From a virus: 29,208 nucleotides of DNA. Position 1 is the stretch's first letter, and each line of letters begins with the position of its first letter. The DNA lies in the IMG/VR virus record IMGVR_UViG_3300034374_005164, positions 1-29,208 of that record. One strand, 5' to 3'. Below, one piece after another: positions 3,023 through 29,053 of this stretch. The notes beneath the pieces were generated by a model. That model was not told the origin of the DNA and did not search any database. It saw only the letters and a program-made list of their open reading frames with translations. Position numbers and translations under genes: made by a program.

Positions 3023-3252
3023 GCATATTCTACTGCGAAGAGGTTGAATGTACATGGAAAGAGAAAAAGCCTAAAGGTTTTGGTAAAACACCTAAGTCAA
3101 TGACTACTTGGTTTACTTGGAAGGCTGATGCTGTTACGGATGATATTTCACCCTATATATCTGACAAGGTGAATCATAGGCTAAACATCAATAAAAGCAT
3201 TGAACTTTTTGAACTAAAGGCTATACCAAAAACAAAAATCATAGAGTTATGA
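3019..3252 (+). CDS. Hypothetical phage protein
   Basis: A 77-residue protein linked by ATGA overlaps on both sides, so it belongs to the same translationally coupled chain. It is mixed charged with an aromatic cluster (KSMTTWFTWKADA) and two N-terminal Cys (CEEVEC). No domain, signal peptide or membrane helix is recognised. Its position between the nucleotide-metabolism pair and the SSB/resolvase genes suggests an accessory early function. Confidence 0.65.
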   Translation: MSIFYCEEVECTWKEKKPKGFGKTPKSMTTWFTWKADAVTDDISPYISDKVNHRLNINKSIELFELKAIPKTKIIEL

Positions 3253-3518
3253 GGAACAATAAGTTTGAAAAGAACTACCTATATCAAATGATGCAGACAC
3301 CCAAACAGTTAATGCAGTACAAGATAATCAAAGACTTTAGCTTCTCTGATAAGAGACAGTTGGTGGAGTTGTTTGACGAGGCTATCTACGCATTAAACGA
3401 GGGCAAGGGCAAGATAGAGTTCAAGCATCTTAATTATAAGGTGATAGAGCTTTTAAGGCAGTCTGGATACAAAGTGGAGTCAACTGGCAATGGTGATATG
3501 TACTATATTTTTCCTTAA
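3249..3518 (+). CDS. Hypothetical phage protein
   Basis: An 89-residue, basic and mostly helical protein. The N-terminal part (KNYLYQMMQTPKQLMQYKIIKDF) is amphipathic. The C-terminal part, ELLRQSGYKVESTGNGDMYYIFP, has a helix-turn then beta-hairpin look that resembles small winged or ribbon domains found in phage early proteins. This is the last gene of the ATGA-coupled chain. A new promoter overlaps its stop codon, so the next gene may be separately transcribed. Function unknown. Confidence 0.65.
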   Translation: MRNNKFEKNYLYQMMQTPKQLMQYKIIKDFSFSDKRQLVELFDEAIYALNEGKGKIEFKHLNYKVIELLRQSGYKVESTGNGDMYYIFP

Positions 3519-6387: not shown

Positions 6388-6412
6388 TAACAACGATATA
6401 TGTGCAACTAAA
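6388..6412 (+). repeat. 25-bp exact direct repeat, copy 2
   Basis: Identical over 25 bases to 1747-1771. Here it follows the zinc-ribbon stop codon, is preceded by GCC (GCCTAACAAC) and supplies the stop codon (6408-6410) of the minus-strand regulator. The box GTGCCTAAC (6383-6391) is the inverted complement of GTTAGGCAC at 6236-6244. Confidence 0.9.
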
Positions 6413-7067
6413 ACCTCACTTCTTCTCTTATTTTATTGGTTGTAGCCTTATTTACCGCTACCTTGTGATACCACTTATCTACATTTGCCTCTTCCTCGTA
6501 GTATATAACACCATCTTTAGTCATAGGCTTAATCAGCTTATCGTCTTTTAAGTTGTTCTTTACTAGATTACCATTTTTATTGCGATAGAAAGGTGTGCTG
6601 TCCACTTTGCTTTCCACCTCACCCGTCATTCTGCTATACCTATCTAGGTACTCAAGGAACTTCTCACACAAGTCAACAGCCTTCTTTGTGTATCTGTATC
6701 TTTCCCTTATTCTCCTTTTTTCAGTATGCTTATGTACACTCTCTCCTTTACCAGATACTTTAGACACCTTTATCTCACTCTCTCCAAATGCTTTTACTAT
6801 GTATCCATTTGATGAAAGGAAGAATAGTATCTTTTTTGCGTAAACAGCAGACACAGGAGTTTTCTTCTGTATGGTGTTACCACTAAAAAACTCAAAGTCG
6901 TACATAGATATTAGAACCTCTACCGCGCTAGGCTGTATGTTGTCTTTACGCTCACTTATCACAGCGTTTATTGCCTTTGCCCAACCTGATATATGTTCTA
7001 CTTTTCTATCCTCCTTTATTTTTAATTTGGAGTCTAGTGTTTTGTATTTGTTTTGAACTCTTGCCAT
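6408..7067 (-). CDS. Winged-helix-like transcriptional regulator
   Basis: A 219-residue basic protein. Residues 47-93 look like a MarR/winged-helix core (AVEVLISMYDFEFF, then TPVSAVYAKKILFFLSSNG with YIVKA), followed by a KVSKVSGKGES wing-like stretch and a helix, YRYTKKAVDLCEKFLEYLD (124-142). The C-terminal part is Lys/Asn rich. It is the only minus-strand gene before the structural block, and its promoter faces that of the first structural gene across a 48-bp gap with a perfect palindrome. This suggests a phage regulator that controls itself and the structural genes. A DNA-binding role is inferred from fold and placement, not from a family match. Confidence 0.6.
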   Translation of the reverse strand: MARVQNKYKTLDSKLKIKEDRKVEHISGWAKAINAVISERKDNIQPSAVEVLISMYDFEFFSGNTIQKKTPVSAVYAKKILFFLSSNGYIVKAFGESEIKVSKVSGKGESVHKHTEKRRIRERYRYTKKAVDLCEKFLEYLDRYSRMTGEVESKVDSTPFYRNKNGNLVKNNLKDDKLIKPMTKDGVIYYEEEANVDKWYHKVAVNKATTNKIREEVRF

Positions 7068-8061: not shown

Positions 8062-8340
8062 ATGTTGACTAAAGTATCGCGTGTTCTACGCAGCTTAACC
8101 GTTGGAGCTATAAAGGACGGTTTCAGATGGGTTGTTGGAAACACAAGCACCCTCAAGGACGAAGAAGGAGAATACTTCAAGGTTATTATATCAAGCATTA
8201 TAAGGCATGACGAGCAAGGTATACCCTATTGGGTTATATACGTCAAGAAGATAGATGACTTAGATGCAGGTGAGTTTATATGGAAGGTTCATCGCAAGGG
8301 AGATCAAAGTGTAACTGAAGAATTTGAACTAGACATATGA
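8062..8340 (+). CDS. Hypothetical phage protein
   Basis: A 92-residue protein with a basic N-terminal helix (TKVSRVLRSLTVGAIKDGF) and then beta strands (FKVIISSIIRHDEQGIPYWVIYVKKIDDLD). The ATGA at its end overlaps the GroES-like gene, so the two are translationally coupled. No domain is recognised. Its consistent link to the chaperonin-like gene suggests it works with capsid assembly or packaging, but this is inference. Confidence 0.6.
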   Translation: MLTKVSRVLRSLTVGAIKDGFRWVVGNTSTLKDEEGEYFKVIISSIIRHDEQGIPYWVIYVKKIDDLDAGEFIWKVHRKGDQSVTEEFELDI

Positions 8341-8933
8341 GATCGGCAGGAAGTTTAATAGTAGAGATAAAGAAAGACTTTAAGGATGAGATTCAATTAC
8401 AAAATGGTAAAATACTCTACCTTGACCCCTCTTACTATAAGTTTGAAAACAGAGTCATGGAAGGTAAGCTCACTTCCGTACCACCTAAACTTTCAGACAT
8501 CTTTAGAGAAGGAGATAGAGTATTCTTTCACCACTCATTAGTCATAGGCACGAACAGTCAAAGACCCGTAGTTGATTGGGATAAAAGGCTATTTAGGTTG
8601 GACTACACAAAAGATTTGTCTTTCAACTGCTTAGTCTATTTAATTGAGAGGGATGGTGAGTTCATTACTGTCAATGACTTTATCTTCATAGAGCCTATCA
8701 AAGAGGAGAAGTTGGAAAAGATAGGCAGTATATACATTCCTCAAACTAAAGAGGATGAAATACCCAAAAAGGGTCGTATAGTATACTCTAACGACTTCGC
8801 CCATGAGGAGCTTGGTGTTAATGTGGGCGATGAGGTGTATATTACAGAGAAGGGTAGATACCCAATGACTATTGATGGACAAGAGTTGTGGCGTATGCGT
8901 TCTACTAGAAATATACTTGCGATAGATGGGTAG
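8337..8933 (+). CDS. GroES-like protein with two Cpn10-type halves
   Basis: A 198-residue protein, about twice the length of GroES. The C-terminal half (about 112-196) follows the Cpn10 order: VNDFIFIEPIKEEKLEKIG, SIYIP, KKGRIVYSN, VNVGDEVYI, then YPMTIDGQELWRMRS and NILAI, which closely matches GroES strands KVGDKVL, IDGEEYLILR and DILAI. The N-terminal half (about 6-104) has a weaker version: KILYLDP, VMEGKLTSVPP, FREGDRVFFHH, LFRLDY and LVYLIERDG. Phage co-chaperonins such as T4 gp31 replace GroES to fold the capsid protein in GroEL, so this may serve capsid folding; it sits just before the terminase genes. The tandem form would need structural confirmation. Confidence 0.75.
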   Translation: MRSAGSLIVEIKKDFKDEIQLQNGKILYLDPSYYKFENRVMEGKLTSVPPKLSDIFREGDRVFFHHSLVIGTNSQRPVVDWDKRLFRLDYTKDLSFNCLVYLIERDGEFITVNDFIFIEPIKEEKLEKIGSIYIPQTKEDEIPKKGRIVYSNDFAHEELGVNVGDEVYITEKGRYPMTIDGQELWRMRSTRNILAIDG

Positions 8934-9210
8934 ACCGAGGAAAGATGTTTTTATTCCAGAGAGTGCTACTAAAGACGCATTAAGAGCTTCTAGGAGTATG
9001 TATGATGCTTTCCTTGCCAATATATCAAAAGGTATAGACGAGGATGCTACGGGGTCTGATAGGCTCAATGAACTGAAGGCTATATCTTATGCTGTGAATG
9101 AACTTCCCAACCTTATAAAAGGTATCAACACTCTTCAGAAGATGATTGAGCAAAAGGATTACGATAAAGAGAGAGATATTGTTGAAGGGGAGAGCGAAAA
9201 ATTTATGTAA
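8926..9210 (+). CDS. Putative small terminase subunit
   Basis: A 94-residue protein directly upstream of the large terminase, with start overlapping the previous stop and its own stop overlapping the terminase ATG (TAATG). It opens with MGRPRKD, a short basic DNA-binding-like stretch, then long helices (ATKDALRASRSMYDAFLANI, ELKAISYAVNELPNLIKGI) and an acidic end. The size, helical character and place fit a small terminase that recognises packaging DNA, though no motif proves it. It could also be an unrelated packaging accessory. Confidence 0.5.
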   Translation: MGRPRKDVFIPESATKDALRASRSMYDAFLANISKGIDEDATGSDRLNELKAISYAVNELPNLIKGINTLQKMIEQKDYDKERDIVEGESEKFM

Positions 9211-11369
9211 TGTCTTTCTACGACAAGGATAATCAAATCATAAACATATCACCGTATGAGGGTGATGTCAATGGAGAGATTATAAATCTTCAAGGGCTGA
9301 AGGTGCAGTTACCTCAGAAGCCCTCTGACAAGTACATACTCAATAGCGACAAGCCTATTTTAGAACAGAAGTGGGCAAGAATATCTATACCTGAAGAGAT
9401 TGATGTTATTGATTCATGGGAAGAGTTTAAGCAGTACCCGCAGGATGTTCAGGATAGGCTTAACGAGTATATTGAAGAAGAGTGGCGTAGGCGTAAAGAT
9501 GGGCTTTGGGTATACATAAAGGGCAGGGCGTATTATCTAACGGGGGATTATTATATGTTCCTTCAATGGGGTAAGCAAGCAGACTTTGACCTTAATGATG
9601 GATACCCTTTGTTTTATGAAAACCAATGGGAGTTAGAGGTTCATGCTGAGGCGTGTTTTCTAATACCTTGGTGCTGTGGGCAGATAGTAGGAAAGAACAG
9701 GCGTTACGGTTGGACTTCTTTGGTTCGCAATAAAACCCTATGTAAGACATCTGGTGGCTTGGGTAAGGGTAAGACTTCAGGTATGACCTCTAAGAATGAG
9801 GATGATGCCAAAGAGGTTCTTTATGAGAAGTTGCTATACACCTATCAGAACTGGCCTTTCTTTTTCAGAATATCATACCATGAGTCAGGTAGTGGGATAA
9901 TCTTCGACAGGAAGAAGCAGCAAATAACTCTTAGCAGGAACAATAAGAAGAAGTCAAATGCTCATGGTGGAAGGATAAGGTACGGTGCAACGAAGAACAA
10001 TACTTTTGATGGTTGGGCTTTATTTATTCTATTGGCTGATGAGATTGCTAAGTTCACTCGTCCTGTTACGTTAAAGAAGTTTTGGGACAAGCATAAGCCG
10101 ACACTATACGATAGGATAAGGGTTAGGGGTTTTGCTTTTTTAGGCACTACTGCTGAAGAGGTTAAAGACCATGAGAAGGAAGGTGCTGAGGATTACAAGA
10201 AGCTATACTCTCAATCTGACATATCTAAGAGTGTTGGAGGAGAGACAAAGAGTGGTCTTATAAAATACTTTTGCTCTGCCCGTAACTCTCTCGTTATAGA
10301 TGAGTATGGGTTGTCAGTTGTCAATGACCCTAAGAAAGATGAGGAGGTTTACGACCATGATGGGAACAGGATACTAGAGGGTTCTAAGACAATTATAGCT
10401 AGAGAGATTAAAAAGCGTGGTAATGATACCCATGCGATAAATGAGTATAGGAGATTATTCCCTTCAACTGAAACGGATATGTTCAGGACGATGGGTAGTA
10501 ATTCTTTGAATACAGAGAAAATATATACTCAGATACAATATAATGAGGAGCAATCGCTATTGGGTGCTACTCCGTTTAGGCAAGGTCTTTTTGAATGGAC
10601 AGGTGAGAGGTATAGAAGCAACGTAACATTTGTGGATAATTCTAGGGGGCAATGGAGGATAGCTTTGTTCTTAGATGAGGAAGACCAGAACAAAAAGATT
10701 ACTGTAAATGGTTTAGATGCTCCTGCTAATGGTTGGCTAGGGGGCGGTGGTGTTGACCCTTATAAGGCAGACCAAACATCTGATGGCAGGGGTTCGTCTG
10801 GCTCATGTCATATCGTGACTAGGTACAATATGAAGTACCCTTCAAACGTATGTATCGCTAGGTATAATGGTAGACCTGAGACATTGTATTTATGCTCTGA
10901 GCAACTGCTTATGGCTCATATATATTTTGGTGTTCCCTGCTTAATAGAGAGGGAGGTAGACACTATGATACGTCATTGGGAAGACTTGGGGTACAAGAAC
11001 TATCTTATAAAAAGCCCACCACACTTAACGCCAAAAGGTTCTAGGAATATAGGTAAGTCGGGAATAAATACTTCGGGTGCTAATGTCAGGGAGGCATTGC
11101 TTTTAGCCTTGCAGACCTATGTAAATGAAAGTATAGGTATGTTGAGTAGTGGTAAGATGGGTAGCTTTTACTTCAATGAGACGTTGTATGACCTTGCGAA
11201 CTTCGATATAAATAACGCAACGATACATGATGACTCAATGAGTTTAGGTATTGCTTTGCTAGGTCTTCAGACGTATAAAGAGTTGAAACCTGTAAAGACA
11301 CAGATAACCAATTTGGTTAGGCGTTTTGACAATAGTGGCACTAGCAGTCGGTTCGTTAAGCCTTCTTAG
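9210..11369 (+). CDS. terL: Large terminase subunit (packaging ATPase and nuclease)
   Basis: A 719-residue TerL with the standard two domains. The ATPase has Walker A GGLGKGKT (182-189) and Walker B ILLADEI (Asp277, Glu278), preceded by the adenine/Q-like N-terminal region. The RNase H-like nuclease has GVDPYKADQTS (Asp516), EREVDTMIRHWEDLG and NATIHDDSMSLGIAL (Asp674, Asp675). It would pump and cut DNA at the portal. The size is at the upper end but normal for podovirus-like phages of Bacteroidota. The next gene, the portal, has its own promoter immediately after the stop. Confidence 0.92.
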   Translation: MSFYDKDNQIINISPYEGDVNGEIINLQGLKVQLPQKPSDKYILNSDKPILEQKWARISIPEEIDVIDSWEEFKQYPQDVQDRLNEYIEEEWRRRKDGLWVYIKGRAYYLTGDYYMFLQWGKQADFDLNDGYPLFYENQWELEVHAEACFLIPWCCGQIVGKNRRYGWTSLVRNKTLCKTSGGLGKGKTSGMTSKNEDDAKEVLYEKLLYTYQNWPFFFRISYHESGSGIIFDRKKQQITLSRNNKKKSNAHGGRIRYGATKNNTFDGWALFILLADEIAKFTRPVTLKKFWDKHKPTLYDRIRVRGFAFLGTTAEEVKDHEKEGAEDYKKLYSQSDISKSVGGETKSGLIKYFCSARNSLVIDEYGLSVVNDPKKDEEVYDHDGNRILEGSKTIIAREIKKRGNDTHAINEYRRLFPSTETDMFRTMGSNSLNTEKIYTQIQYNEEQSLLGATPFRQGLFEWTGERYRSNVTFVDNSRGQWRIALFLDEEDQNKKITVNGLDAPANGWLGGGGVDPYKADQTSDGRGSSGSCHIVTRYNMKYPSNVCIARYNGRPETLYLCSEQLLMAHIYFGVPCLIEREVDTMIRHWEDLGYKNYLIKSPPHLTPKGSRNIGKSGINTSGANVREALLLALQTYVNESIGMLSSGKMGSFYFNETLYDLANFDINNATIHDDSMSLGIALLGLQTYKELKPVKTQITNLVRRFDNSGTSSRFVKPS

Positions 11370-11414: not shown

Positions 11415-13826
11415 ATGAATGATGCGAAAAAAATAGGTTCTTTTCCCTCTCCACTTTTACCTAAAGAGGAGAAAAAGAAAGATAGCTACGGACTTCAGGT
11501 TGGTCGTGCTATTGAAGGAAGTTGGTTTGACAATCAATCATATAACTTCTCAAAGCAGCAAAAGGACATTCAAGAGAGGCGTTCATACGCTTACGGAAAG
11601 CAAAACATTGATAGGTATAAGGCAAGGATAAATCCTAGTGGTGATAACTCTTATTACAACTTAGACTTCTCTCCTGTTGCCATTGCTCCTAAGTTTGTTA
11701 GTTCTATTGTTAGCGCAATATACGATAATAAGTTTGAGATAGAGGTAAAGGCTATTGACCCTTTGGCGTTATCTCAAAAGGAGGCTTACAAGAATGACCT
11801 TATTGGTAAGATTATCAATAAGCCTTACCTCGATGAGCTTAAAGAGCAGTTTGGAATTGATATGCTTCAGGGTCAGGAGTTGCCTGAAACTGTTGAGGAG
11901 GTAGACCTTCACATGAATCTTAATTTCAAGCAGTCTGTGGAGATTGCTGCTGAGATTGCTATACGTTATGCGTTTAAGATAAACGATTATGACGAAGAGA
12001 TTAAGAGGAAGATAATTGAGGATATTGTTGTTATTGGCAAGGGTGTATCTCTTGACATAACTGACCCTATTGATGGCATTAAGCTAGAGTACATTGACCC
12101 TGAGTATTGGGTTCATTCTGCTACGCGAAGGCAAGACTTTAAGGATTGCTTTTACATGGGTCATATTGAGTATATGACTATTGCTAAGTTGCGTAGGCAA
12201 GCTGCATCTAGGGGTGCTGAGTGGGCGAATAACGAGAAAGACTTAGAGAAAATAGCTAAGATGTACGTTGGGGAGCTTGGCAACCCAACTACATTTGATT
12301 ACACCTACAATAACAATGTGGGTTATTATCCTTATGATGATTACTTGATACCTGTCTTACGCTTTGAGTATAAGGTGTCGGATATGGATAAGTATGAGGA
12401 GAAGGATACTAAGTACGGAACAACGACATTTAAGAAAAAGCCTTCAGGGTATAAGCCACCAAAGAAGTCAAAGTACAATAGAAAGCAGTACGAAGATAAA
12501 TACGAAGATATTTATGCGGGGTACTATGTACTAAAGACTGATAAGATATATGGTTGGGGAAGGTTAGACAATCAGGTTCGTCCTGACGATGCTTTAAGAA
12601 AGTGTGAGTTTAGCTATACTGCTTATGCTCCTGAGTTATATAAAAATGACACATCATCTATCATAGGTAAGATAATGCCTTACCTCGATGCCATACAGCT
12701 ATCGTGGTTAAAGATGCAGGTTGTCATGCAAAACTCAGCACCAGATGGGTATGCTATCGACCTTAGTGCTTTAGATGCTGTTGACTTGGGTAATGGTGCG
12801 TTAGACCCAATGACCATTGAGGATATACGTCAGGCTACGGGTAGATTGTTTTATCGTTCAATGAACGAAGACCAATCGAGGAATAGTGTGCCTGTCATGC
12901 CTATGCGTAATCAGTTAGACGTTAGTCCTTTCATAAATCAGATTGAGTTTAACTTGAGGATGATTCGTGAAATTTCAGGTGTAGTGCCTGAGATGGATGG
13001 TCAAACAAAGAGAGATCAGCTTGTAGGTGTGACTGAAATATCTATTCAGTCAGCGAAGAACTCTATAAGCTACATAGATAATAGCATTAGGAGTATCACT
13101 CGCAGGGTTGCTGAGAAGAGCATCATGCGTATTCAAGACCTACCTAAAGGAAGTGCATTATACAAAGAGTATATGGAGGCTGTTGGTCAAGCTAACATGG
13201 CTGTTGTTGATGCTATGGGCGACCTATCTATTCATAAGTTCGGAATAGACATTTCTGTTGGTAGGAATGATGTGGAGAGATTATCTTTTGAGAGGGATGT
13301 TACCGCAATGGTTAATGCAGGAATGATAACACCTGATGAGAGGTACTTTATCCTTCGTATTACCAACACCAATTACGCTGCTGCATATCTTAAAATGACC
13401 AGAGAGAAGCGTGAGGCTCGTAAGTTGGAAGAGGATAAGGCTCGTATTCGTGAGCAGTCTATGGCAAATGCTCAAGCGGCTCAAGCGGCTGAACAGGCTA
13501 AGGCAATGGCAGCACAAGCAATAGCTCAGTATGAGTTACAGAAAGAGATTCAGCTTCTTAATCAGGTGAAGATGCCTGAGATGAACTTACAGTTTCAGTA
13601 TGACGCACAGCTTCAGCAGATAAAGAATACAGGTTCTTACAATCAGGCTCAGGTATCAGCTATGGCTAAGGCTGCTGTGGAGGCTGAGAAGGAAGATAGG
13701 AAAGACCAGAGAAGTGAGAAGGAAGCTACTCAACAAGGGGAGATAGCGTACAGGAAGGAGAAGAATCTACCGCCAAAAGACTTTACTGAGGAAGAGATGT
13801 TTAAGTTCGAGGGTGGTGGAGTATAA
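11415..13826 (+). CDS. Portal protein
   Basis: An 803-residue protein that fits a podovirus-type portal. The N-terminal part has RRSYAYGKQNIDRYK and a block containing YYNLDFSPVAIAPKFV, typical of portals near the terminase in Bacteroidota phages. The middle includes charged segments and IEFNLRMIREISGVVPEMDG. The C-terminal 120 residues (about 680-800) are Ala/Gln/Glu-rich and predicted coiled coil, the barrel/crown-like end. Portals form dodecamers at one capsid vertex that thread DNA and dock the terminase. The gene follows terL with its own promoter. The N-terminal 30 residues (KEEKKKD) look disordered. Confidence 0.88.
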   Translation: MNDAKKIGSFPSPLLPKEEKKKDSYGLQVGRAIEGSWFDNQSYNFSKQQKDIQERRSYAYGKQNIDRYKARINPSGDNSYYNLDFSPVAIAPKFVSSIVSAIYDNKFEIEVKAIDPLALSQKEAYKNDLIGKIINKPYLDELKEQFGIDMLQGQELPETVEEVDLHMNLNFKQSVEIAAEIAIRYAFKINDYDEEIKRKIIEDIVVIGKGVSLDITDPIDGIKLEYIDPEYWVHSATRRQDFKDCFYMGHIEYMTIAKLRRQAASRGAEWANNEKDLEKIAKMYVGELGNPTTFDYTYNNNVGYYPYDDYLIPVLRFEYKVSDMDKYEEKDTKYGTTTFKKKPSGYKPPKKSKYNRKQYEDKYEDIYAGYYVLKTDKIYGWGRLDNQVRPDDALRKCEFSYTAYAPELYKNDTSSIIGKIMPYLDAIQLSWLKMQVVMQNSAPDGYAIDLSALDAVDLGNGALDPMTIEDIRQATGRLFYRSMNEDQSRNSVPVMPMRNQLDVSPFINQIEFNLRMIREISGVVPEMDGQTKRDQLVGVTEISIQSAKNSISYIDNSIRSITRRVAEKSIMRIQDLPKGSALYKEYMEAVGQANMAVVDAMGDLSIHKFGIDISVGRNDVERLSFERDVTAMVNAGMITPDERYFILRITNTNYAAAYLKMTREKREARKLEEDKARIREQSMANAQAAQAAEQAKAMAAQAIAQYELQKEIQLLNQVKMPEMNLQFQYDAQLQQIKNTGSYNQAQVSAMAKAAVEAEKEDRKDQRSEKEATQQGEIAYRKEKNLPPKDFTEEEMFKFEGGGV

Positions 13827-15989: not shown

Positions 15990-16280
15990 ATGTCGAGCAT
16001 AGGCAACATAAAAAACTACGAGGTAAAGCAAGTTCCTAGCGGTGATGATAAGCTACTAGGTACTGACTCAACAGATGGTGCTACACGGAACTTTGTTATA
16101 AGCTCCTTAGGGAATGCTGTAATAGTAATTCCTGTATATGCCACATTTGCTTTATTAGAGGCAGATATAAATAACTTACAGAAGGGAAAGATTTATTTCG
16201 TTGAGGATGATCAAGGCTCTCCCAATTGGTTTGGTTTTGACGGTACTAATTTAAACTGGTTTGTAACACAGCAAGTATAA
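15990..16280 (+). CDS. Small virion appendage/fibre-associated protein
   Basis: A 96-residue protein. KLLGTDSTDGATRNFVISSLGN is a motif shared with phage fibre N-terminal regions that attach to the virion, and the rest (FALLEADINNLQKGKIYFVEDD, then WFGFDGTNLNWFV) resembles a small fibre-trimerising or glycan-facing domain. Its stop overlaps the ATG of the SGNH-hydrolase gene (TAATG), so they are likely co-translated and work as one appendage. It may be an adaptor to the tail. Confidence 0.6.
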   Translation: MSSIGNIKNYEVKQVPSGDDKLLGTDSTDGATRNFVISSLGNAVIVIPVYATFALLEADINNLQKGKIYFVEDDQGSPNWFGFDGTNLNWFVTQQV

Positions 16281-18802
16281 TGGCAAGGATATTAAACACA
16301 AAGACCCAAGATATAAAGAGTGCTATCCAACTAGAGGGTAGACCTTGGGCAAACACTATTCGTAATGAAAGTGGTGGTATACAACTTGAATGGGATTCAG
16401 ACGACTCAGTTTGGCAAGTACCCGTATCTGAACAGAGAACCTTTTCAGCAGGTAGTATTGACATAAAGGCAGGTAGGGCTATATGGATTGAGTCCATTGT
16501 TATTTCAAGCGATCAAGCAGGATTTATTGAGGGTTTTTTCCGTTATAATGATGGTGCTGATTGGGTAGGTACTGAGGATGTGAATGTGGGTGGTGCTACG
16601 GATGGAACTATTCGTATAGCTACTAACGGCAGTCCTGTTACCTTAAATGTAAATAGGCTTTACTCGGAGTTCTTCAATATAACCATTACGAGGTTTGTGC
16701 CATCTCCTGTACATCCTAGCGTTACTGTTGCTGCTCAGGATTTTTATGTTAGACCAACTCCTATTGAGCCTAACTTAGCGGTTACTGTATTTGGTATGGA
16801 GATTACCAATGACTTAAACTTTGGTGCTTCCAAGCGTTTAGGTTTTGCGGGTGATTCTCTTTCATGGTCGTTAATTGGTGATTACAGAACGCAGGATTTA
16901 GGGTATAACCTTACGGGTTCTAATGATAACTTCCCGCCTAACTTTGGAAACAACCTTGCAGCCTTCAGGCTTGTAAATGCTTTGCGTGAAGGGGGTGAGG
17001 ACATACGATTAGTCAATAAGGGCTTTGGCGGTTCTACCTTGTTGAAAGAGCAATGGTATATGCTCAAGACGGGTGCATACACATATCCTTGGAACATCTT
17101 TATATTACAGGCAGGGGCGAACGATTCAAGTAATGTCCAGACACCTTTGTATCAGTTGACCTTTAAGAATCGCATGAGAGACTTTTGCTCTAGGCGTTTG
17201 GAAGATGGGCATACTTATCAGGATGCGGGTGTGACTAAACCTTATCCGATGGTATTCTGTACTGCTCCTAGCTTAGATGATAAGTCAAAAGGACTCAATA
17301 GCAGAAATAACTTAGATGTTAGAGTTCCTATTGATGGGGAGTCGTATGATACTGAGTTTAGTACAACAACAGGTTCGGGAGATACAGCTATTAACTTCAC
17401 CACTAAAACCAATAGATACTACAAAGTATCGGGTGATAACGACATTGTGCTAGAGCTTTCAGGCGGTGTTGATGGTGAGTTTTACCGAGTAGACTTTTGG
17501 GATGACTCAAGAATATACACGGGTACTACGGGTGCTTCGTATTCTTTTGTTCACACATTAGACTCCTACAACAGCACAATTGCACCTAATGGTATTGTTT
17601 CGATAGATGCTATGACTTCTATATTCTTCAAGGCTGAGAATAACAGCAATGGGGTGTTGGAGTACAAGGAGGTTGATAGGGTTAATTTGGTAGGCAGGTC
17701 TATGTCTAATGGAGATGTTTTATTTGACCCTGTATCGACAGACACTTCTTTAAGGCAGAGTCATTTTATAGCTAGTCGTAACACAGCAAATTCTGGACGA
17801 ACTAAGATTACTGCACCTGCTATGAATAATATCTCTCAAATAGATACAATAGGTACGGTAAGTATTTTTGCGGGTTATGTGAGGTTGAACCTTGCGAACA
17901 ACACTATTACAAGTGATGACTTACCTTCTTCTTTATCTATTGATACAAATGATGTGTGGGTAAGGCTCTATAATATGGGAGATAGTGCTGCGGGAAGTAC
18001 AGAGAGTTGGGAAGACTCTAATGGCTTCTATAAGGTTATTGGGTATCAAAAAACAGGTGGTGCTTTAGATTCTATTGACATACTCTTTGATGCTAGAGAT
18101 GGTAATGGAAGAGACTTTTCTGGAACATACGACACAAACTCAGGTAGGGTAGAAATCATAAAGACTCGTGATTACACTCCAATGTTTGAAACGGGAGATG
18201 TTAATGCGAGTGCTAGCAACTGCTTTTATTTTGAGGCAGGTGATGTTACAGTAGGTGAATATATTTATAGGTGGCAGTTACAGAATGGAGCAACAACCTT
18301 CAACTTACTTAGAGGCAAGGGTATTGTGTTTAGCTGTTACCAACAAGGTAAGACAATCTTTATGAATGAGATTGTTAGTGGTGACATAGTAAACACGGGA
18401 GATGTAAAGGGTGCTGCAAACGCAACTGCTTTCTACGCTGATGCTAACGAGGTTGGTAAGACAAGAATGGGTATTGTAAACAGTAATGTAAGTTCTGTTG
18501 TAAATGAGTACTCAGAAAATGATAATGTTCATTTGATTGACTTGAATGATTACACAGACATTAAAGATGTTAGTGAAACAACAGGTAAGAGGCTGTATTA
18601 CAACTCTACAACTGAAGTAACAGGCAGTGCTTACACTTGGAAAGTTGGTGATTTAATTGAAGATCCTACTTTTAAGAGAGTAGGAGATACAGGTACTAAT
18701 GAATGTGTTGTAGGTTCAAGGATTCACCGATCTCCAAAGGGGCATGAACTGATGTTTGATAATATGAACTCAGTAGTAAGCAACATAACAATACCTAGTT
18801 AA
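16280..18802 (+). CDS. Large virion SGNH-hydrolase-type appendage (esterase/deacetylase-like)
   Basis: An 840-residue protein with the SGNH hydrolase blocks in order: block I LGFAGDSLSWS (nucleophile Ser193), block II VNKGFGGST, block III LQAGANDSS (Gly279, Asn281) and block V SRIHRSPKGHELMF (His816). About 530 residues lie between blocks III and V, far more than in simple SGNH enzymes, and include beta-rich material. The usual DxxH aspartate before His816 is Ser813, so a Ser-His dyad or a different acid is implied. Residues 1-180 have beta-rich, fibre-like character. Likely an esterase or deacetylase acting on host surface polysaccharide. It is in the fibre region, preceded by a fibre-motif gene. 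Confidence 0.75.
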   Translation: MARILNTKTQDIKSAIQLEGRPWANTIRNESGGIQLEWDSDDSVWQVPVSEQRTFSAGSIDIKAGRAIWIESIVISSDQAGFIEGFFRYNDGADWVGTEDVNVGGATDGTIRIATNGSPVTLNVNRLYSEFFNITITRFVPSPVHPSVTVAAQDFYVRPTPIEPNLAVTVFGMEITNDLNFGASKRLGFAGDSLSWSLIGDYRTQDLGYNLTGSNDNFPPNFGNNLAAFRLVNALREGGEDIRLVNKGFGGSTLLKEQWYMLKTGAYTYPWNIFILQAGANDSSNVQTPLYQLTFKNRMRDFCSRRLEDGHTYQDAGVTKPYPMVFCTAPSLDDKSKGLNSRNNLDVRVPIDGESYDTEFSTTTGSGDTAINFTTKTNRYYKVSGDNDIVLELSGGVDGEFYRVDFWDDSRIYTGTTGASYSFVHTLDSYNSTIAPNGIVSIDAMTSIFFKAENNSNGVLEYKEVDRVNLVGRSMSNGDVLFDPVSTDTSLRQSHFIASRNTANSGRTKITAPAMNNISQIDTIGTVSIFAGYVRLNLANNTITSDDLPSSLSIDTNDVWVRLYNMGDSAAGSTESWEDSNGFYKVIGYQKTGGALDSIDILFDARDGNGRDFSGTYDTNSGRVEIIKTRDYTPMFETGDVNASASNCFYFEAGDVTVGEYIYRWQLQNGATTFNLLRGKGIVFSCYQQGKTIFMNEIVSGDIVNTGDVKGAANATAFYADANEVGKTRMGIVNSNVSSVVNEYSENDNVHLIDLNDYTDIKDVSETTGKRLYYNSTTEVTGSAYTWKVGDLIEDPTFKRVGDTGTNECVVGSRIHRSPKGHELMFDNMNSVVSNITIPS

Positions 18803-20202: not shown

Positions 20203-21543
20203 ATGTCTGTACAAGCCCCTAATGATTTTTCGGGACAAAACTCGTTTAGAGAGGGAGCATCCCCCTCAAAATATATCTCACTTGGTCAATACATCAATGA
20301 GGTAGATATGCCTGATAACCGTGAACGTCTAGTGATGACTTACGGTGATCAAGCGATTTCAACCATTTACGGACTCTGCTATATGGTGGGTGCTGTAAAG
20401 CAAGGTGGAACGAATGATACTATGCAATGGTGGGAAGACACTCGTCTTCACAATACTGCTGATGGTGTTAATGATACTACTGCTGCATTAGGTAGCACTA
20501 CTACTATTACCATTAACCTTGCTAACCACAAGGTTCGTGTGAACGATAACCTTATTGTTTTCAAGGGTGATTACGCCATCCGTGCTAAGGCACTTACAGT
20601 TGGGGTATCTAGCTTCACTCTTGACCCTGTATCTACATGGCCTGTTGCCTTTGCTCAAGGAGAAACTATCTCTGCATCTATTGTAGGTAACGACTACGCT
20701 CAGGGTACAGAGCAGCCAACTGAATTTATTCAGAGCAACGTAGTTAAGCGTGAGAACACATACGTTATCGTAAAAGATAGATTTGTTACTACTGGCTCTC
20801 AGATGACTAACAAGTCATGGGTTAAGTTGCCTAGTGGTGGTGATGCTTTCTATTGGAAGGGAGAAATGGATACTCGTAAGCGTTTCCTAGACTTCATTGA
20901 GATGGCTCTTATCACAGGTGAGTCTTACTCTAACTCTACATTGACTACTTCTAATCTTAATGGTGTAGAGGGTTACTTCTCTGCATTGGAGAATCGCGGT
21001 ACTCGTATGGGTTATGTGACTTCTGTTGAAGACCTTGAAGACTTGGGAGAGGTTCTTGACCAAGAGGGAGGTTCAACTGAATATGCTTGCTACGCTCGTA
21101 CTAAGCAGATGAACTACATTAGCCGATTGGCTGCTGCCTTGAATCAGGGTGGAATGAGCTACGGAATGTTCAACAACAGTCCTGAAATGGCTATGAACCT
21201 TGACTTCACATCGTTGAAGCATGGTGGTCGTGAGTATCATTGGCACACTTGGAAGCTCTTGAATGACAAGCAGCTATTAGGAAAGCCCGGTCAAGACATC
21301 TATAAGTGGGTAGGTGTACCTATGGATACTATCAAGGATTCTAAGACGGGTGTTGAAGCTCCATTGCTTGAGATTAACTACAAGACATTGGATGGATACT
21401 CTCGTGAGATTGAGACTTGGGTGAATGGTGCTGCTAATGGTGTCTACAATGACTCTAGTGGTTTCGATGGAAAGCGTTGGGATATGCGCGCAGAGCAGTC
21501 TATGGCTACTCGTGCTGCTAACCGTCACATTCTTGGTAAGTAA
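20203..21543 (+). CDS. Major capsid protein (HK97-fold)
   Basis: A 446-residue protein with the capsid features: an N-terminal arm (FREGASPSKYISLGQYIN), then the body (RERLVMTYGDQAIST), an inserted beta-rich stretch (ITINLANHKVRVNDNLIVF...), and a helix region (KRFLDFIEMALITGES), the C-terminal part with GREYHWHTWKLLND. Codon usage is more biased than in neighbours (many CGT, GGT and CTT codons), as for highly expressed genes. It follows the scaffold gene by 20 nt and is followed by tandem decoration-like genes. It would form the icosahedral shell. Confidence 0.9.
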   Translation: MSVQAPNDFSGQNSFREGASPSKYISLGQYINEVDMPDNRERLVMTYGDQAISTIYGLCYMVGAVKQGGTNDTMQWWEDTRLHNTADGVNDTTAALGSTTTITINLANHKVRVNDNLIVFKGDYAIRAKALTVGVSSFTLDPVSTWPVAFAQGETISASIVGNDYAQGTEQPTEFIQSNVVKRENTYVIVKDRFVTTGSQMTNKSWVKLPSGGDAFYWKGEMDTRKRFLDFIEMALITGESYSNSTLTTSNLNGVEGYFSALENRGTRMGYVTSVEDLEDLGEVLDQEGGSTEYACYARTKQMNYISRLAAALNQGGMSYGMFNNSPEMAMNLDFTSLKHGGREYHWHTWKLLNDKQLLGKPGQDIYKWVGVPMDTIKDSKTGVEAPLLEINYKTLDGYSREIETWVNGAANGVYNDSSGFDGKRWDMRAEQSMATRAANRHILGK

Positions 21544-22122: not shown

Positions 22123-22713
22123 ATGAGAAAGATATACGTAGAGCTTAATGCGAATAAAACAATACGTTTTACTCCAACGAGTTATACAGTAAATGATACT
22201 GTTGAATTAACAATTAATGGTATCTCTTACTCTGTTCAGGGGACGGGTACTCTTTCCACTACGATAGATAATTTCATATTAGCTAATAAAAGAGCTATTG
22301 GAGATTTTCATAATTGCTTTATTGAGGATAATGGTTCGTATATTGATTTAAACAACGTATCTTCAATAAGAACAATATCCGCAAATAACGCGACTATAAC
22401 ACCGCCTTTTGAAACCGAGGATAGGTGTTCTATTAATGTTGACTTATTTGGTACTGATGTTTTAAATGAAAATATTGAGTTCTTTATTTCAGATAAAAAC
22501 AATCTTGGCTCTGTTTCTTTAGAGTTTTCTAGTTCAGAAAAAGCCTTGAACGGACTATCTTTAATTAAAGATGCTTCTACTAGAAATGGCACTTATCCAT
22601 ATAACTTAAATGGAGCTTATAAGGCTTCATTATATGATGGCGCAATAACAACGGAAGATGGCGTTTTATTAACGACAGAAGATAACGTAGTAATAATAAC
22701 AGAGCAAGCATAA
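22123..22713 (+). CDS. Decoration-like virion protein, copy B of tandem paralogues
   Basis: A 196-residue protein, paralogous to the 21566 gene over about 120 residues: VELTINGISYSVQGTGTL, TIDNFILANKRAIGD, IDLNNVSSIRTISANNATI and SSSEKALNGLSLI. It is longer, with an extra C-terminal repeat, TTEDGVLLTTEDNVVIITE, a low-complexity tail seen in some phage fibres. ATG 22123 is preferred over the TTG at 22120. Its stop overlaps the next ATG (TAATG). Likely a capsid-surface protein or fibre attachment unit. Confidence 0.65.
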   Translation: MRKIYVELNANKTIRFTPTSYTVNDTVELTINGISYSVQGTGTLSTTIDNFILANKRAIGDFHNCFIEDNGSYIDLNNVSSIRTISANNATITPPFETEDRCSINVDLFGTDVLNENIEFFISDKNNLGSVSLEFSSSEKALNGLSLIKDASTRNGTYPYNLNGAYKASLYDGAITTEDGVLLTTEDNVVIITEQA

Positions 22714-23651
22714 TGGCTAAAGTAAAAATATCGGAATTAACTGCTATGGATGCAGTTAATGTGTCGGCAAATGATTCGTTTGCGATAGTTGATGTTAGTG
22801 AAGATGTTACCAATAAAATAACATATACGGAGTTAAAGTCCAAGTTTTCTGGCGCAACAAATTCTTTTTCAGAAAACTCCTATGCCGTAGGTACACAGAA
22901 TGATGTAAGTGGAGCATCTTCATTTGCATCTGGTTCACAGAATGATGTAAGTGGCTCAGGTTCACTTGCATCTGGAATATCTAATGATATTAATGGAAAT
23001 ACTTCACTTGCATCTGGTACATCGAATATTGTTTACAGTGATTATTCAATAGCAGGTGGGAGATCAAATAATCTTAATCTTGCCACTCATTCTTTCGCTT
23101 TTGGGAAAGATAATAGTGTTCAGAGTAGTCAAGAGGCTCTTGCAGTAGGGTTAAATAATAGGATTGAATCAGGCTCACATAGGTCTATTGCAACAGGCAG
23201 GGATTCTAGGACTTTCTTACGTGGTCAGCGTTCACACGCTATTGACTCTTTTACGAATATTGGTGATGCTCAGTATACTGATGTCACGTTAAAAGCATTA
23301 ACAACAGATGCTACACCAACTGAATTAAGTATTGATGCTTCTGCAGATTCATTTCTCGTGGAGCAAGATACAGCAATGTTTCTTACGGTAGCTGTAACTG
23401 GTTTTACTGAAGATGGTGCGGATGCTGCTCATTATATACGCAAGGTAGCTATTAAAAATGAGGGTGGTACTACTTCACTTATTGGTAGTGTATCTACTAT
23501 TGGAACAGATGTAGAGACTCAAGCGGGATATGATGTGAGCTTGACTGCTGATGATACAACTGATACTTTAGCTATTATTGTAACTGGTGATGCAAGTAAA
23601 AACATGAGGTGGGTAGCTTATTGTCACGGTACTTTGATTGGTATGCCTTGA
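22713..23651 (+). CDS. Virion fibre with YadA-type head repeats
   Basis: A 312-residue protein. Residues 1-46 (ISELTAMDAVNVSANDSFAIVD, VTNKITYTELKSKF) look like a virion-attachment module. Residues 56-165 hold about eight tandem 14-15-residue repeats of the form S-x-A-x-G-x-x-N-x-V-x-G, such as SYAVGTQNDVSGA and SLASGISNDING, the left-handed beta-roll pattern of YadA-head adhesins. Residues 171-312 resemble a phage fibre C-terminal domain (SIDASADSFLVEQDTAMFL, LTADDTTDTLAIIVTGD). The protein is probably trimeric and binds host surface. Nucleotide repeats underlie the beta-roll. Confidence 0.7.
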   Translation: MAKVKISELTAMDAVNVSANDSFAIVDVSEDVTNKITYTELKSKFSGATNSFSENSYAVGTQNDVSGASSFASGSQNDVSGSGSLASGISNDINGNTSLASGTSNIVYSDYSIAGGRSNNLNLATHSFAFGKDNSVQSSQEALAVGLNNRIESGSHRSIATGRDSRTFLRGQRSHAIDSFTNIGDAQYTDVTLKALTTDATPTELSIDASADSFLVEQDTAMFLTVAVTGFTEDGADAAHYIRKVAIKNEGGTTSLIGSVSTIGTDVETQAGYDVSLTADDTTDTLAIIVTGDASKNMRWVAYCHGTLIGMP

Positions 23652-24524: not shown

Positions 24525-27500
24525 ATGGCTAGTACAAGCATAACGAACACACCAAGGTATCTGAACGCTGATTCTGATGAGCGTTTGTTGTCTCCTGAAG
24601 AAATGTCTGATGCCCTTAATGTTCGCGGTATATCGGGGGAAGAGGGTAAGGGATTTGTCCTTAAAACGATTAGGGGAAATCAACTAATTAACCATACCCT
24701 ACCTACGGGGGGTAATACTGTTATAGGTGCTATACCCGTTGAAGAGACAAACAAGATTTACTATTTTGTTTCAAACTCAGTTTCAAACTCAAATGACGAG
24801 CACTCTATTTTGGAGTATGATAGTATTGCTAATACTATACAAGAGGTTATTCGAGATAGTGTCTTAAACTTTCAGACAACAAATTTAATTCAGGGTAGGG
24901 GAATGATATTAGAGAATGGTGATACTCTAATATATTTCACAGACAACCTAAATCCTGTACGTAAGATTAACGTACAAACAGCACTTTCAGGCTACCCATC
25001 ACCATTGACAGAGGAATATATTGAGGTATTAAAATACCCGCCCGTCAACAAGCCTACATTTGAGTTTGATACTGTAACAGACCAGTCTATAAACAATGTA
25101 GCGGGGAAGATGTTTCAGTTCTCTTATAGATACATTTATGATGATGGGGAGGTAAGTGCTTACTCACCTTATTCAGATGTAGCTATATCAGACTACTATC
25201 TTCAGAATAGTGTGTATACTTCTTCTCAGATTGACAGCAACAACAACGTCATAAATCTAACCCTTGATACGGGTAGTGGTATATGCACCCATATAGAGGT
25301 TATATTCAGAGAGGGTAATACAGGTGAGTGGAAGAGGATAAGGAGAATTGCCAATAACTCAGGGGTATCAACTTTAGAATTGACATTTGATAATAATGGA
25401 AACTATCAGGTAGCAGATACCAATGATACGAATAAGCTGTTTGACAATGTACCTATCACAGCTAAGGCTATTGATATTATTGGTAATAAGTTGGTGTTGG
25501 GCAACTATGTTGATGGATATAGTAATGTAGAGGAGGTTGCTACGTCAACAGATATTAGTATTGTCCCTAGATATTATCAAAGGAAAGACTATACAAATGC
25601 CGCAACCATACCCGCTAGTATCGTAGTTAGCCCTATACTTGGTAACAATGTAGGCACAATAACCTTTGACTTCTCATCATATACGGTGAATGAGGGTGAT
25701 TACATACTACTAAGTTGTTCTCCTGTTTTGGGGTATATACCATCCACCTTCCCTCCAGTAGGGGAAGCATCCATTGGCATCATTCAAGCTGAGTATGTGG
25801 TTCAGGGTGGTGATACTATTGCTGATATTCTTGATGCTTTTGATACGATATTAAGTAATAATCCTACATTTGGAGATATAGCTGTTGTTCCTTATTTAAC
25901 CTACTCTTCAGGTACAGATTTATTTGTGACCGTTAGACCTCGACCAGATCAGAATGTTACAGCAGTTGGCACACCTCTCCTAAACAACTCTATTGTATCG
26001 CAAGGTGGTGGTGGGCTATCTATAAACTCTTTTAAGTCGGGTGCTAATCATCCAGTAGGTATTGTCTACTACGATAGAGGTAATAGAAGCTCAACTGTAC
26101 AGAAGCCATTACAAGAAGGTGTTTATGTGAAGTTCTTCTCTGAAAGAGAGGGCGACCCAATAGAAGGTTTTGGTGTTACAGGCCTCGATATGAGGATTGG
26201 TACTACACCTCCCGAATGGGCTACGCATTACAAAATAGTTTACGCGGGTAACACTACTGTTGGAGAGTTTCTTCAGTACACCTCTCTAGGGGCTTACGCT
26301 GCTGCAAACACAGATACAGCGAGTGTAGCTGATGCAAAGATATATTTATCGTTTAGGGGCTTTAAGGGGAAAGCAGATAGCTATAAGGAAAGACTTGGTG
26401 CTGAGATAGATTATAACTTTCAAGAGGGAGACAGGCTAAGGATAATAAGCTACTATGATGCAGATGCGGCAGATAGAGTTTATGCTAATGGATACCTAGA
26501 CTTTAAGATATTAGGCTTAGAGACATACGACCCAAGTAACAGCCCCTTAATTGTAGGTACTGCTTCTGAGGCAGAAGAGTATAATAGAACAGGTGTATTC
26601 CTTCTTGTTGAGGATAGCGGTTTAGATGGATGGTCTTTCTCTGATTTATCAGGTCAAAATAATTGGTATGATGGGGCTGGTGGAGATAATACAGGTAATG
26701 GAGCTTACTTTGAGATATATAGACCCTATGCCTCACCTGAAAATGAGGTGTATTATGAAATTGGTCAAGAGTATAGCATATTAAATGCAGGAACAGTATC
26801 TAGGACACATGAAGGAAATATAAGGAATCAAGGCTCTATTATAAGCTATACCATAACAAATGTCAATGACTCCACATCACCCACATACGTTGATGTTGGT
26901 CTTAATATAGACAATGTAAACCTAGTCAATGGTGATGAAATAAATGTATCGGGAACAGGGAGTGTAGCAAGAGGAATAATAAGGCAAACAGAGTTTTTGA
27001 CATCTAGTTCAACTCGAATATATTTTGATTTTGAATCTTTTGATGGGGTTGTAAATGGTGATGTTGTAGCTTTGAACGAGACAACGGCAGCCATAAGGAT
27101 TAGTGGTGGAGATGTGTGGATGAAACCTAGATTGCTTAGGATAAACAACACAGCAAACACACTAGATAACTACATTGATGTAGCTGAAGATTACTATGCC
27201 AATGATTTCCTACCAACAAACTCTTGGGGTAAAGGTAGACCAAATGCTTTCTCTGAAAACTCTAAACAAGTAAATAGATACCAAACTATTACTTGGTCTG
27301 ACTCTTTCTTTACCGACACTAATGACAACGGCTTTAGCTCTTTCAATACAGCACTAGTCAACTTCAAAGAGTTTCAAAATGGGTACGGCTCTATACAGCT
27401 TCTAAGGCGTAGAGGCAATGATTTGGTGTGCTACCAAGAAGATAGGGTGTCAAACATATTGGTCAATAAAGACATTCTCTTTACACCTGACGGCTCTTCA

Positions 27501-28535
27501 ACAGTATCTATTAGCAACAACTTTGTATCTGAGCCAAATTACTACTCAGGTGATTATGGGATAGGGCTAAATCCAGAGTCTTTTGCTGAAGCCGATGGTA
27601 GGCACTATTGGGCATCTGCAAAGAGAGGTAATATATTACGCCTAGGGGGTGATGGCATAACGCCTATATCCGAGTATGGAATGAGATCATACTTCGATGG
27701 TGTGTTTAGCAGTTTCCTACCTTCTATTGCGACAGCAAAGATTTTTAGTGGATTCGATAGGGATAATCAAGAGTATTATGTGAGCATACCAACGGGTATT
27801 GACACTATTACTATATGCTTCTCTGAGCAAGCTAAGAAATGGATTTCAAGGTGGAGCTTTAAGCCTGAGTTCTATTCAGGTGTAAATATGAAGTTCATCA
27901 CATTTGATGAGGGTAAGCTATACCTTCATGATGCTAACTCTCTTCACTCTAACTTTTATGGTGTTCAGTACAATGCTAGTTTTTCTATAACTGCTAATGC
28001 AAACCCTCAAGTTATAAAGACATATAGGGCTTGTGAGTTGCAGTCGAACAAAGCATGGGACTGTACTGTTGTTCAGACTAATTTAGTCTCGTCAAGTATT
28101 CCAGAGGCTAACTTTGAGGAGAAAGAAGGGTTCTATCACGCTGAGTTTCTAAGGACAACGGGTGGAAGCTCAGGGAATAAAGAAGCTCCATTTGTGGGAC
28201 TAGGAACTGTGTCAGCTATCAATGGTAATGTAGTTACAATATCAGGCTTTAACAAAAGCTCTGTTGATGTTATGATAGGAGATACTTTTTATCAGTCGGG
28301 GAGTGGAGCTGCTATTGGTACGGTTACAGCAATCGGGGATGGTGAGTTAGTGTTAAGCTCTGTTTTAGGTCTTTCTGTTAACGACTTCGTTTATCTAATA
28401 AAAGATTTAGCTATACAGGGCGATGCTATAAAAGGCTATTATGCTAAGATGACATTCACTCAAGATGATTCTTCCTACTCTGAGATATTCGCTGTTAGAA
28501 ACTTTGTGAATTATTCTCCAATATCAATTAAGTGA
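24525..28535 (+). CDS. Large connector/DNA-stabilisation-like tail protein
   Basis: A 1336-residue beta-rich protein beginning TPRYLNADSDERLLSPEEMSD, then ALNVRGISGEEGKG, an N-terminal signature shared by phage stabilisation proteins of the P22 gp10 and crAss-like type. The body contains TTNLIQGRGMILENGDTLIYF, FSYRYIYDDGEVSAYSPYSD, then RQGN/NRYQ-type beta-propeller-like segments (FNTALVNFKEF, GLNPESFAEADGRHYWASAK). The C terminus ends DAIKGYYAKMTFTQDDSS and EIFAVRNFV. It would plug or gate the head-tail channel. The length is larger than gp10 (about 470 residues) but fits the longer Bacteroidota-phage forms. It follows the adaptor gene by 5 nt. Confidence 0.75.
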   Translation: MASTSITNTPRYLNADSDERLLSPEEMSDALNVRGISGEEGKGFVLKTIRGNQLINHTLPTGGNTVIGAIPVEETNKIYYFVSNSVSNSNDEHSILEYDSIANTIQEVIRDSVLNFQTTNLIQGRGMILENGDTLIYFTDNLNPVRKINVQTALSGYPSPLTEEYIEVLKYPPVNKPTFEFDTVTDQSINNVAGKMFQFSYRYIYDDGEVSAYSPYSDVAISDYYLQNSVYTSSQIDSNNNVINLTLDTGSGICTHIEVIFREGNTGEWKRIRRIANNSGVSTLELTFDNNGNYQVADTNDTNKLFDNVPITAKAIDIIGNKLVLGNYVDGYSNVEEVATSTDISIVPRYYQRKDYTNAATIPASIVVSPILGNNVGTITFDFSSYTVNEGDYILLSCSPVLGYIPSTFPPVGEASIGIIQAEYVVQGGDTIADILDAFDTILSNNPTFGDIAVVPYLTYSSGTDLFVTVRPRPDQNVTAVGTPLLNNSIVSQGGGGLSINSFKSGANHPVGIVYYDRGNRSSTVQKPLQEGVYVKFFSEREGDPIEGFGVTGLDMRIGTTPPEWATHYKIVYAGNTTVGEFLQYTSLGAYAAANTDTASVADAKIYLSFRGFKGKADSYKERLGAEIDYNFQEGDRLRIISYYDADAADRVYANGYLDFKILGLETYDPSNSPLIVGTASEAEEYNRTGVFLLVEDSGLDGWSFSDLSGQNNWYDGAGGDNTGNGAYFEIYRPYASPENEVYYEIGQEYSILNAGTVSRTHEGNIRNQGSIISYTITNVNDSTSPTYVDVGLNIDNVNLVNGDEINVSGTGSVARGIIRQTEFLTSSSTRIYFDFESFDGVVNGDVVALNETTAAIRISGGDVWMKPRLLRINNTANTLDNYIDVAEDYYANDFLPTNSWGKGRPNAFSENSKQVNRYQTITWSDSFFTDTNDNGFSSFNTALVNFKEFQNGYGSIQLLRRRGNDLVCYQEDRVSNILVNKDILFTPDGSSTVSISNNFVSEPNYYSGDYGIGLNPESFAEADGRHYWASAKRGNILRLGGDGITPISEYGMRSYFDGVFSSFLPSIATAKIFSGFDRDNQEYYVSIPTGIDTITICFSEQAKKWISRWSFKPEFYSGVNMKFITFDEGKLYLHDANSLHSNFYGVQYNASFSITANANPQVIKTYRACELQSNKAWDCTVVQTNLVSSSIPEANFEEKEGFYHAEFLRTTGGSSGNKEAPFVGLGTVSAINGNVVTISGFNKSSVDVMIGDTFYQSGSGAAIGTVTAIGDGELVLSSVLGLSVNDFVYLIKDLAIQGDAIKGYYAKMTFTQDDSSYSEIFAVRNFVNYSPISIK

Positions 28536-28549
28536 GAAAGCCCCTTGCT

Positions 28550-29053
28550 TTAAATGTGCTTCCACTGCTTACCTGATCGAATTCTATAAACTTGCGATTG
28601 GGCTACCCCATAAATCTTCGCAATCTCCTCCTGCGTAATGCCTTGATGTCCATACTTAATACGTTCAGCGCACTCTCTTGTTAGTTTTGAAACGGGGTGT
28701 TTCTCCCCTCTTGCAGGGGATATCAATCCAATATCATAAGCGTGTATCGTATTCTCAGATTGCGTACAATACTCTAGATTTTCAAGGCGGTTGTCGGTCT
28801 TAATCCCACTCTTGTGATTAACCTGCAAATCTGATTCACTAACAAATGCGAGCATTACTAGTCTATGGACTCTATAATCTTTCTTTTCTCCTCCTTTACA
28901 CAATACTACCTGCACATATCCACTACTGTCACATCTAGGTTTAAGAACCCTTTCTTTTCCAAACTTCAGGCTTTTCACTCTCCCCAAGTTAGACACTTGA
29001 TAAAGCCCTTCGTAATTAGGTATGTCTTTCCAATGTTCTATATTTGATTTCAT
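28550..29053 (-). CDS. Free-standing NUMOD4/HNH homing endonuclease
   Basis: A 167-residue protein of the homing-endonuclease type. The N terminus has the NUMOD4 motif WKDIPNYEGLYQVSNLGRV (8-26), followed by an HNH nuclease (His63 in VHRLVMLAF, VNHKSGIKTDNRLENLE at 78-94 with Asn79, His80). The C terminus (GEKHPVSKLTRECAERIKYG, then QEEIAKIYGVAQSQVYRIRSG) is a helix-turn-helix DNA-binding domain. It would cut DNA at a specific target to spread itself. It lies on the minus strand between two plus-strand structural genes, not inside an intron. Two TAnnTTTG boxes lie upstream on the minus strand. Confidence 0.88.
   Translation of the reverse strand: MKSNIEHWKDIPNYEGLYQVSNLGRVKSLKFGKERVLKPRCDSSGYVQVVLCKGGEKKDYRVHRLVMLAFVSESDLQVNHKSGIKTDNRLENLEYCTQSENTIHAYDIGLISPARGEKHPVSKLTRECAERIKYGHQGITQEEIAKIYGVAQSQVYRIRSGKQWKHI

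Follow-up and report, generated by a model that had tools for sequence, protein, structure and literature searches.

A tandem GroES-like protein encoded ahead of the packaging genes in a phage genome fragment

The viral DNA analyzed in this study, a stretch of 29,208 nucleotides referred to below as the window, encodes a 198-aa protein with two GroES-like halves. Each half carries a loop with a hydrophobic core, neither has room for a roof, and the gene occupies a fixed place 5' of the gene for the terminase large subunit (terL). We think it likely that this protein acts with host GroEL as a two-domain co-chaperonin lacking a roof, and that it probably serves capsid or packaging proteins. The gene and its parts are as follows.

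8337-8933, plus strand: tandem GroES-like (two-domain Cpn10) protein, 198 aa (ORF with an ATG start; PHROG, AF2 and Foldseek matches)
8337-8654, plus strand: N-terminal GroES-like half, residues 1-106, divergent (hhalign, AF2 of the half alone, conservation)
8403-8423, plus strand: candidate N-half mobile-loop core NGKILYL, residues 23-29 (loop alignment)
8667-8930, plus strand: C-terminal GroES half, residues 111-198, bearing G164-D165 (Pfam Cpn10, hhalign, PDB profiles)
8724-8741, plus strand: C-half mobile-loop core GSIYIP, residues 130-135 (alignment to Thermus GroES, loop comparison)

The C-terminal half was identified by standard searches. Residues 111-196 match Pfam Cpn10 with E=1.4e-5 and a score of 25.5 bits, above the 21.1-bit cut-off, and profile-profile comparison by hhalign matched this half to GroES with a probability of 98.3% (E=1.4e-14). 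A profile search of PDB returned Thermus GroES (E=5e-8) and Cpn20 (E=4e-6). Pfam matches to MazE antitoxin (0.028) and TrkA_C (0.19), as well as a PDB match to EmrA (0.061), were judged to be due to chance. The reverse strand of 8337-8933 contains one overlapping open frame only, which is unsupported.

Pfam gave no match for the N-terminal half. A protein in which the C half alone is a GroES domain, joined to an unrelated small beta domain, would account for this silence, and also for a weak direct comparison of the two halves (36% by hhalign) and a modest structural match of the N half on its own. We consider such a composition very improbable. An N-half profile, built from 65 aligned family members and cut at residue 106, matched GroES over residues 1-66 with 95.2% probability (E=2.6e-8), far above the controls (at most 4.8% for 30 column-shuffled GroES profiles and 0.25% for reversed GroES). 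Even the direct comparison of the halves scored 24.7, with a shuffle maximum of 13.4. The N half matched phage single-domain GroES at 93%, far above the 17% obtained with four bacterial GroES alone, and the N half of one relative matches the GroES family phrog_3188 (E=3e-4). Family-wide, P49, G59 and D60 of this half are invariant, and H65 and H66 are nearly so.

Structure prediction pointed in the same direction. The AF2 model of the whole protein, based on an alignment of 65 homologues, had a pLDDT of 90.6 and a pTM of 0.85, and the 34 Foldseek matches at or above a probability of 0.95 were co-chaperonins without exception. The tandem Cpn20 chain 7ekq_R spanned both halves (214 columns) with a query TM of 0.54, whereas single-domain chains reached at most 0.37; thus, both halves and their rough arrangement match Cpn20. 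When folded alone, the N half was modeled with a pLDDT of 89.7, and its best PDB match was E. coli GroES (1aon_O; probability 0.77, E 0.24, TM ~0.5). The next-best match had a probability of 0.13, leaving GroES as the sole credible, though modest, match; PAZ and alcohol dehydrogenase domains, with probabilities of at most 0.13, were rejected. The predicted GroES-type beta-barrel is therefore strong for the whole protein and modest for the lone N half, and GroES/Cpn10 profiles recognize the C half by Pfam and the N half by profile-profile comparison only. Judged by these profiles and models, the N half is a divergent GroES domain, and the protein has two such domains in one chain, as Cpn20 does. 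A sequence-only reading of this DNA had proposed two Cpn10-type halves, with residues 6-104 as a weaker second copy, and had placed the protein closer to chloroplast Cpn20 than to the single-domain gp31 of phage T4. The description as a weaker second copy proved apt, and the two Cpn10-type halves and the likeness to Cpn20 were supported.

The family is already known and annotated, and is not new. Residues 1-196 of 198 align with positions 1-198 of 200 of phrog_13932, annotated as co-chaperonin GroES (E=2e-24), which also covers relatives in Cellulophaga, Maribacter, Flavobacterium and Manatee Spring phages. Public records name the homologue co-chaperonin GroES or Cpn10 in phi38:1, Calle, phi13:2, elemo and Panino, and Cpn10 is listed among the core genes of Pervagoviridae (PMC8776804). 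Full-length homologues of the same size occur in phi38:1, phi40:1 and Calle (Pervagoviridae) and in phi13:2 (Pachyviridae), where the gene likewise precedes terL and portal, but the window protein is only ~23% identical to the Cellulophaga homologues. No two-domain description of the Cellulophaga proteins was found in the annotations or literature searched, and a limited literature search likewise found no description of the tandem build, the linkage to terL or the coexistence with phage GroEL/GroES.

The window phage itself is isolated. A tblastn search of phage records with the tandem protein gave no match at E 0.01 and only Cellulophaga phages at E 10. Neither the window protein nor its terL, used alone as a query against viral contigs, retrieved anything beyond identical IMG/VR copies; apart from these, the nearest homologues are ~35% identical. 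Relatives were therefore collected via terL synteny and profiles, and one Manatee Spring relative retrieved 540 related viral stretches.

The neighborhood of the gene in the window consists of the following features.

8062-8340, plus strand: 92-aa ORF 5' of the GroES-like gene, overlapping its start by 4 nt (ATGA)
8926-9210, plus strand: 94-aa ORF between the GroES-like gene and terL, a small-terminase candidate, overlapping both neighbors
9210-11369, plus strand: terminase large subunit (phrog_6681, E=2.7e-109)
11415-13826, plus strand: portal protein (phrog_6547, E=1e-112)
20203-21543, plus strand: probable major capsid protein, 446 aa, a possible client (phrog_13704, virion structural protein, E=2.7e-89)

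The capsid assignment also draws on Calle, in which a gene of equal length 3' of portal is annotated as structural protein/major capsid protein. Since overlaps chain the 92-aa ORF, the GroES-like ORF, the 94-aa ORF and terL, the GroES-like gene is very likely part of a packaging operon that continues through portal and, later, the probable capsid gene. The placement directly 5' of the packaging genes, which the sequence-only reading had also pointed out, is thus borne out. The 94-aa ORF appears to be helical, and small ORFs occupy this position in 99 loci. TerL is longer in Calle, Panino and elemo, and its N-terminal extension there looks similar to the ORF (profile match 60%, E=8.5e-5; shuffle maximum 0.55%), which makes the ORF a candidate small terminase that would be fused to the large one in these relatives. 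On the other side of the gene, a 219-aa ORF on the minus strand (6408-7067), with no Pfam match, lies between replication-type and packaging genes, and the change of strand here may correspond to the border between two modules.

In a survey of 80 terL loci, which were fetched by terL alone, all 62 informative loci carry the tandem gene 5' of terL and in the same orientation, with a gap of 197-3428 nt. The 18 loci without it all end within 2.5 kb 5' of terL. Outside this pattern, Tenacibaculum phage Gundel has no tandem gene 5' of terL and no Cpn10 match genome-wide. Such strict linkage would be expected of structural or packaging genes sooner than of chaperone genes, and it favors the main rival of the co-chaperonin reading. 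In this rival, the GroES fold has taken on a new function in head assembly or packaging, e.g., as an adaptor that forms a ring, an aid to the scaffold or a partner of terminase, and no longer works with a chaperonin. We regard this rival, which also draws on the distribution of GroEL and on loop lengths, as unlikely. In the annotation of Calle, several neighbors are named structural whereas the tandem gene is named chaperonin Cpn10, which speaks against repurposing at the level of annotation only.

GroEL is encoded by 17 of the searched relatives (7 and 10 records). Each of these 17 also has a separate short Cpn10-matching frame away from the tandem gene, usually near groEL, and the tandem protein in them is therefore an extra co-chaperonin. 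Retention of the tandem gene where the phage already encodes GroEL and a single-domain GroES is a point in favor of the repurposed factor. Among known phages, Calle and phi38:1 have both additions, while phi13:2 has a single-domain GroES (3088-3336 of our locus L198, corresponding to NC_021803.1 30087-30335; phi13:2 is also our locus L097) besides the tandem protein and no GroEL, so that it encodes two lids but lacks its own cage. The longer contigs of window-like phages (48-72 kb: G003-G006, G011 and G013; completeness not estimated) contain no GroEL and no second GroES, the tandem protein being their sole Cpn10 match, which suggests that the chaperonin partner in window-like phages would be that of the host. 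The lack of GroEL in the window is uninformative because the window is a 29-kb fragment.

The loops in both halves resemble the mobile loops with which co-chaperonins would contact GroEL. In the C half, alignment to Thermus GroES shows GSIYIP as the counterpart of GGIVLT of GroES, and this loop, 23 residues long in the window protein, has the lowest AF2 confidence (block mean 71). In the N half, NGKILYL fits the pattern [G/S]-G-[I/L]-E-L-Y of relatives, and both are putative GroEL-binding motifs by sequence. Several members have textbook-like loops, e.g., VVSAGGLYLG, EVSEGGIIM and KTKSGILLL. In 53 distinct window-like members fetched by terL, the C-half loop has 21-29 residues; 52 of them carry the hydrophobic motif in this loop, and 52 have the N-half motif; this conservation, which includes loops such as SAGGLYLG and SEGGIIM, argues against a factor with no chaperonin role.

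The main GroEL-encoding lineage (P0005) differs in this respect. All 47 of its distinct members retain the N-half motif, but their C-half loop is cut to 16 residues and lacks the motif. The motif test is loose and demands a length of 20, so the difference in length is the robust part of this contrast. Loop shortening goes with the presence of GroEL, but the P0005 lineage is one clade, and Calle and phi38:1 encode GroEL and yet have a long C-half loop; hence, this association reflects few independent events. The P0005 pattern, which combines a short C-half loop with a separate canonical GroES, is consistent with repurposing and counts against the co-chaperonin reading, since it shows that a complete set of loops is not needed for the tandem protein to be retained and that the protein may serve a different purpose. 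Also against this reading, the N half is strongly diverged, and AF2 gave its loop the form of an ordered hairpin (pLDDT ~95), not of a mobile segment.

The roof hairpin, which is typical of GroES and not essential, does not fit in either half: the segment from the second strand to the GD motif has ~9-11 residues, compared with ~19 in GroES. T4 gp31 also lacks roof loops (PMC6318259), and a roof is therefore not required for function.

Three known types of co-chaperonin provide a framework for these features. Cpn20 of chloroplasts and apicoplasts likewise has two GroES domains head to tail. Both domains of Cpn20 retain a roof as well as mobile loops (PMC3542282), whereas the window protein has no room for a roof, and Cpn20 is a eukaryotic organelle protein rather than a phage protein; the phage fusion probably arose independently. 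Gp31 is also a phage-encoded co-chaperonin with a roofless lid, and it is known to act in head-protein folding (PMC6318259), a function only proposed for the window protein; gp31 is a single-domain homoheptamer, whereas the window protein has two domains and its gene adjoins terL. Finally, single-domain viral GroES proteins (phrog_3188; those of elemo, phi38:1 and ctfjg026 are encoded near groEL) have the same fold, and their canonical mobile loop of the SGLIL type resembles the tandem N half, but they have one domain, and their genes show linkage to groEL rather than terL.

Under the co-chaperonin reading, the protein would act as two head-to-tail GroES domains produced alongside packaging and head proteins. 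In window-like phages, its loops would bind host GroEL and the protein would form a wider, roofless lid on the cage, like that of gp31, and the capped cage would fold a phage head or packaging protein. Several subunits would have to combine. By analogy with Cpn20, these may be three or four copies (6 or 8 domains) or, alternatively, a mixed seven-domain ring with single-domain GroES supplied by the host or, in relatives, by the phage. Tandem Cpn20 functions with GroEL and can substitute for GroES, acting with seven-fold chaperonins either alone or mixed with Cpn10 (PMC5780408; PMC3542282), and chloroplast tandem subunits together with single-domain partners can make an ordinary seven-domain ring (PMC5780408).

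The sequence-only reading had suggested that the capsid protein needs its own lid and that ring symmetry with GroEL is unusual. Either may be the case, but the first would not be the whole story, because relatives already have GroEL and a single-domain GroES; in addition, there is no obvious reason why the predicted capsid protein, with 446 aa and a mass of ~49 kDa, should exceed what a normal cage can hold. A more specific scenario, which we view as rather doubtful, is that these phages reinvented the chloroplast arrangement: the tandem protein would build mixed seven-domain lids with the single-domain GroES of the host or phage, and in lineages bearing GroEL and GroES the second mobile loop would have decayed, leaving a subunit that closes the ring or serves specific clients in capsid assembly. 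We attach very little credence to the idea that the protein is a competitor that caps and blocks host GroEL without forming a productive lid. Retention of putative GroEL-binding loops in an otherwise strongly diverged protein would suit such a role, but the gene lies in the late head and packaging module and not among early takeover genes, and no precedent was found.

Other genes in the window provide information on the virion. The C-terminal part of a 1336-aa protein (24525-28535) matches the crAss-like phage muzzle family (PF25731, E=2.6e-24; PF25729, E=2e-6), which suggests a crAss-related podovirus tail. Two sub-threshold matches were also noted: an 840-aa protein (16280-18802) resembling GDSL lipase/acylhydrolase (E=6.5e-4) is a possible virion-borne esterase or tail fiber, and a repetitive protein (22713-23651) matching a beta-roll ice-binding model (E=5.6e-5) is probably a fiber-like repeat. 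A NUMOD4/HNH homing-type endonuclease is encoded on the minus strand (28550-29053) just past the virion gene block.

It was the study of phage head assembly that led to the discovery of GroEL and GroES, and chloroplast Cpn20 poses the standing question of how a seven-fold chaperonin can operate with an even-numbered lid. The data described here point to a natural tandem lid in a common lineage of aquatic phages, some members of which have their own GroEL and single-domain GroES. These phages would offer a bacterial system for the genetics of lid stoichiometry, loop number and capsid-specific folding.
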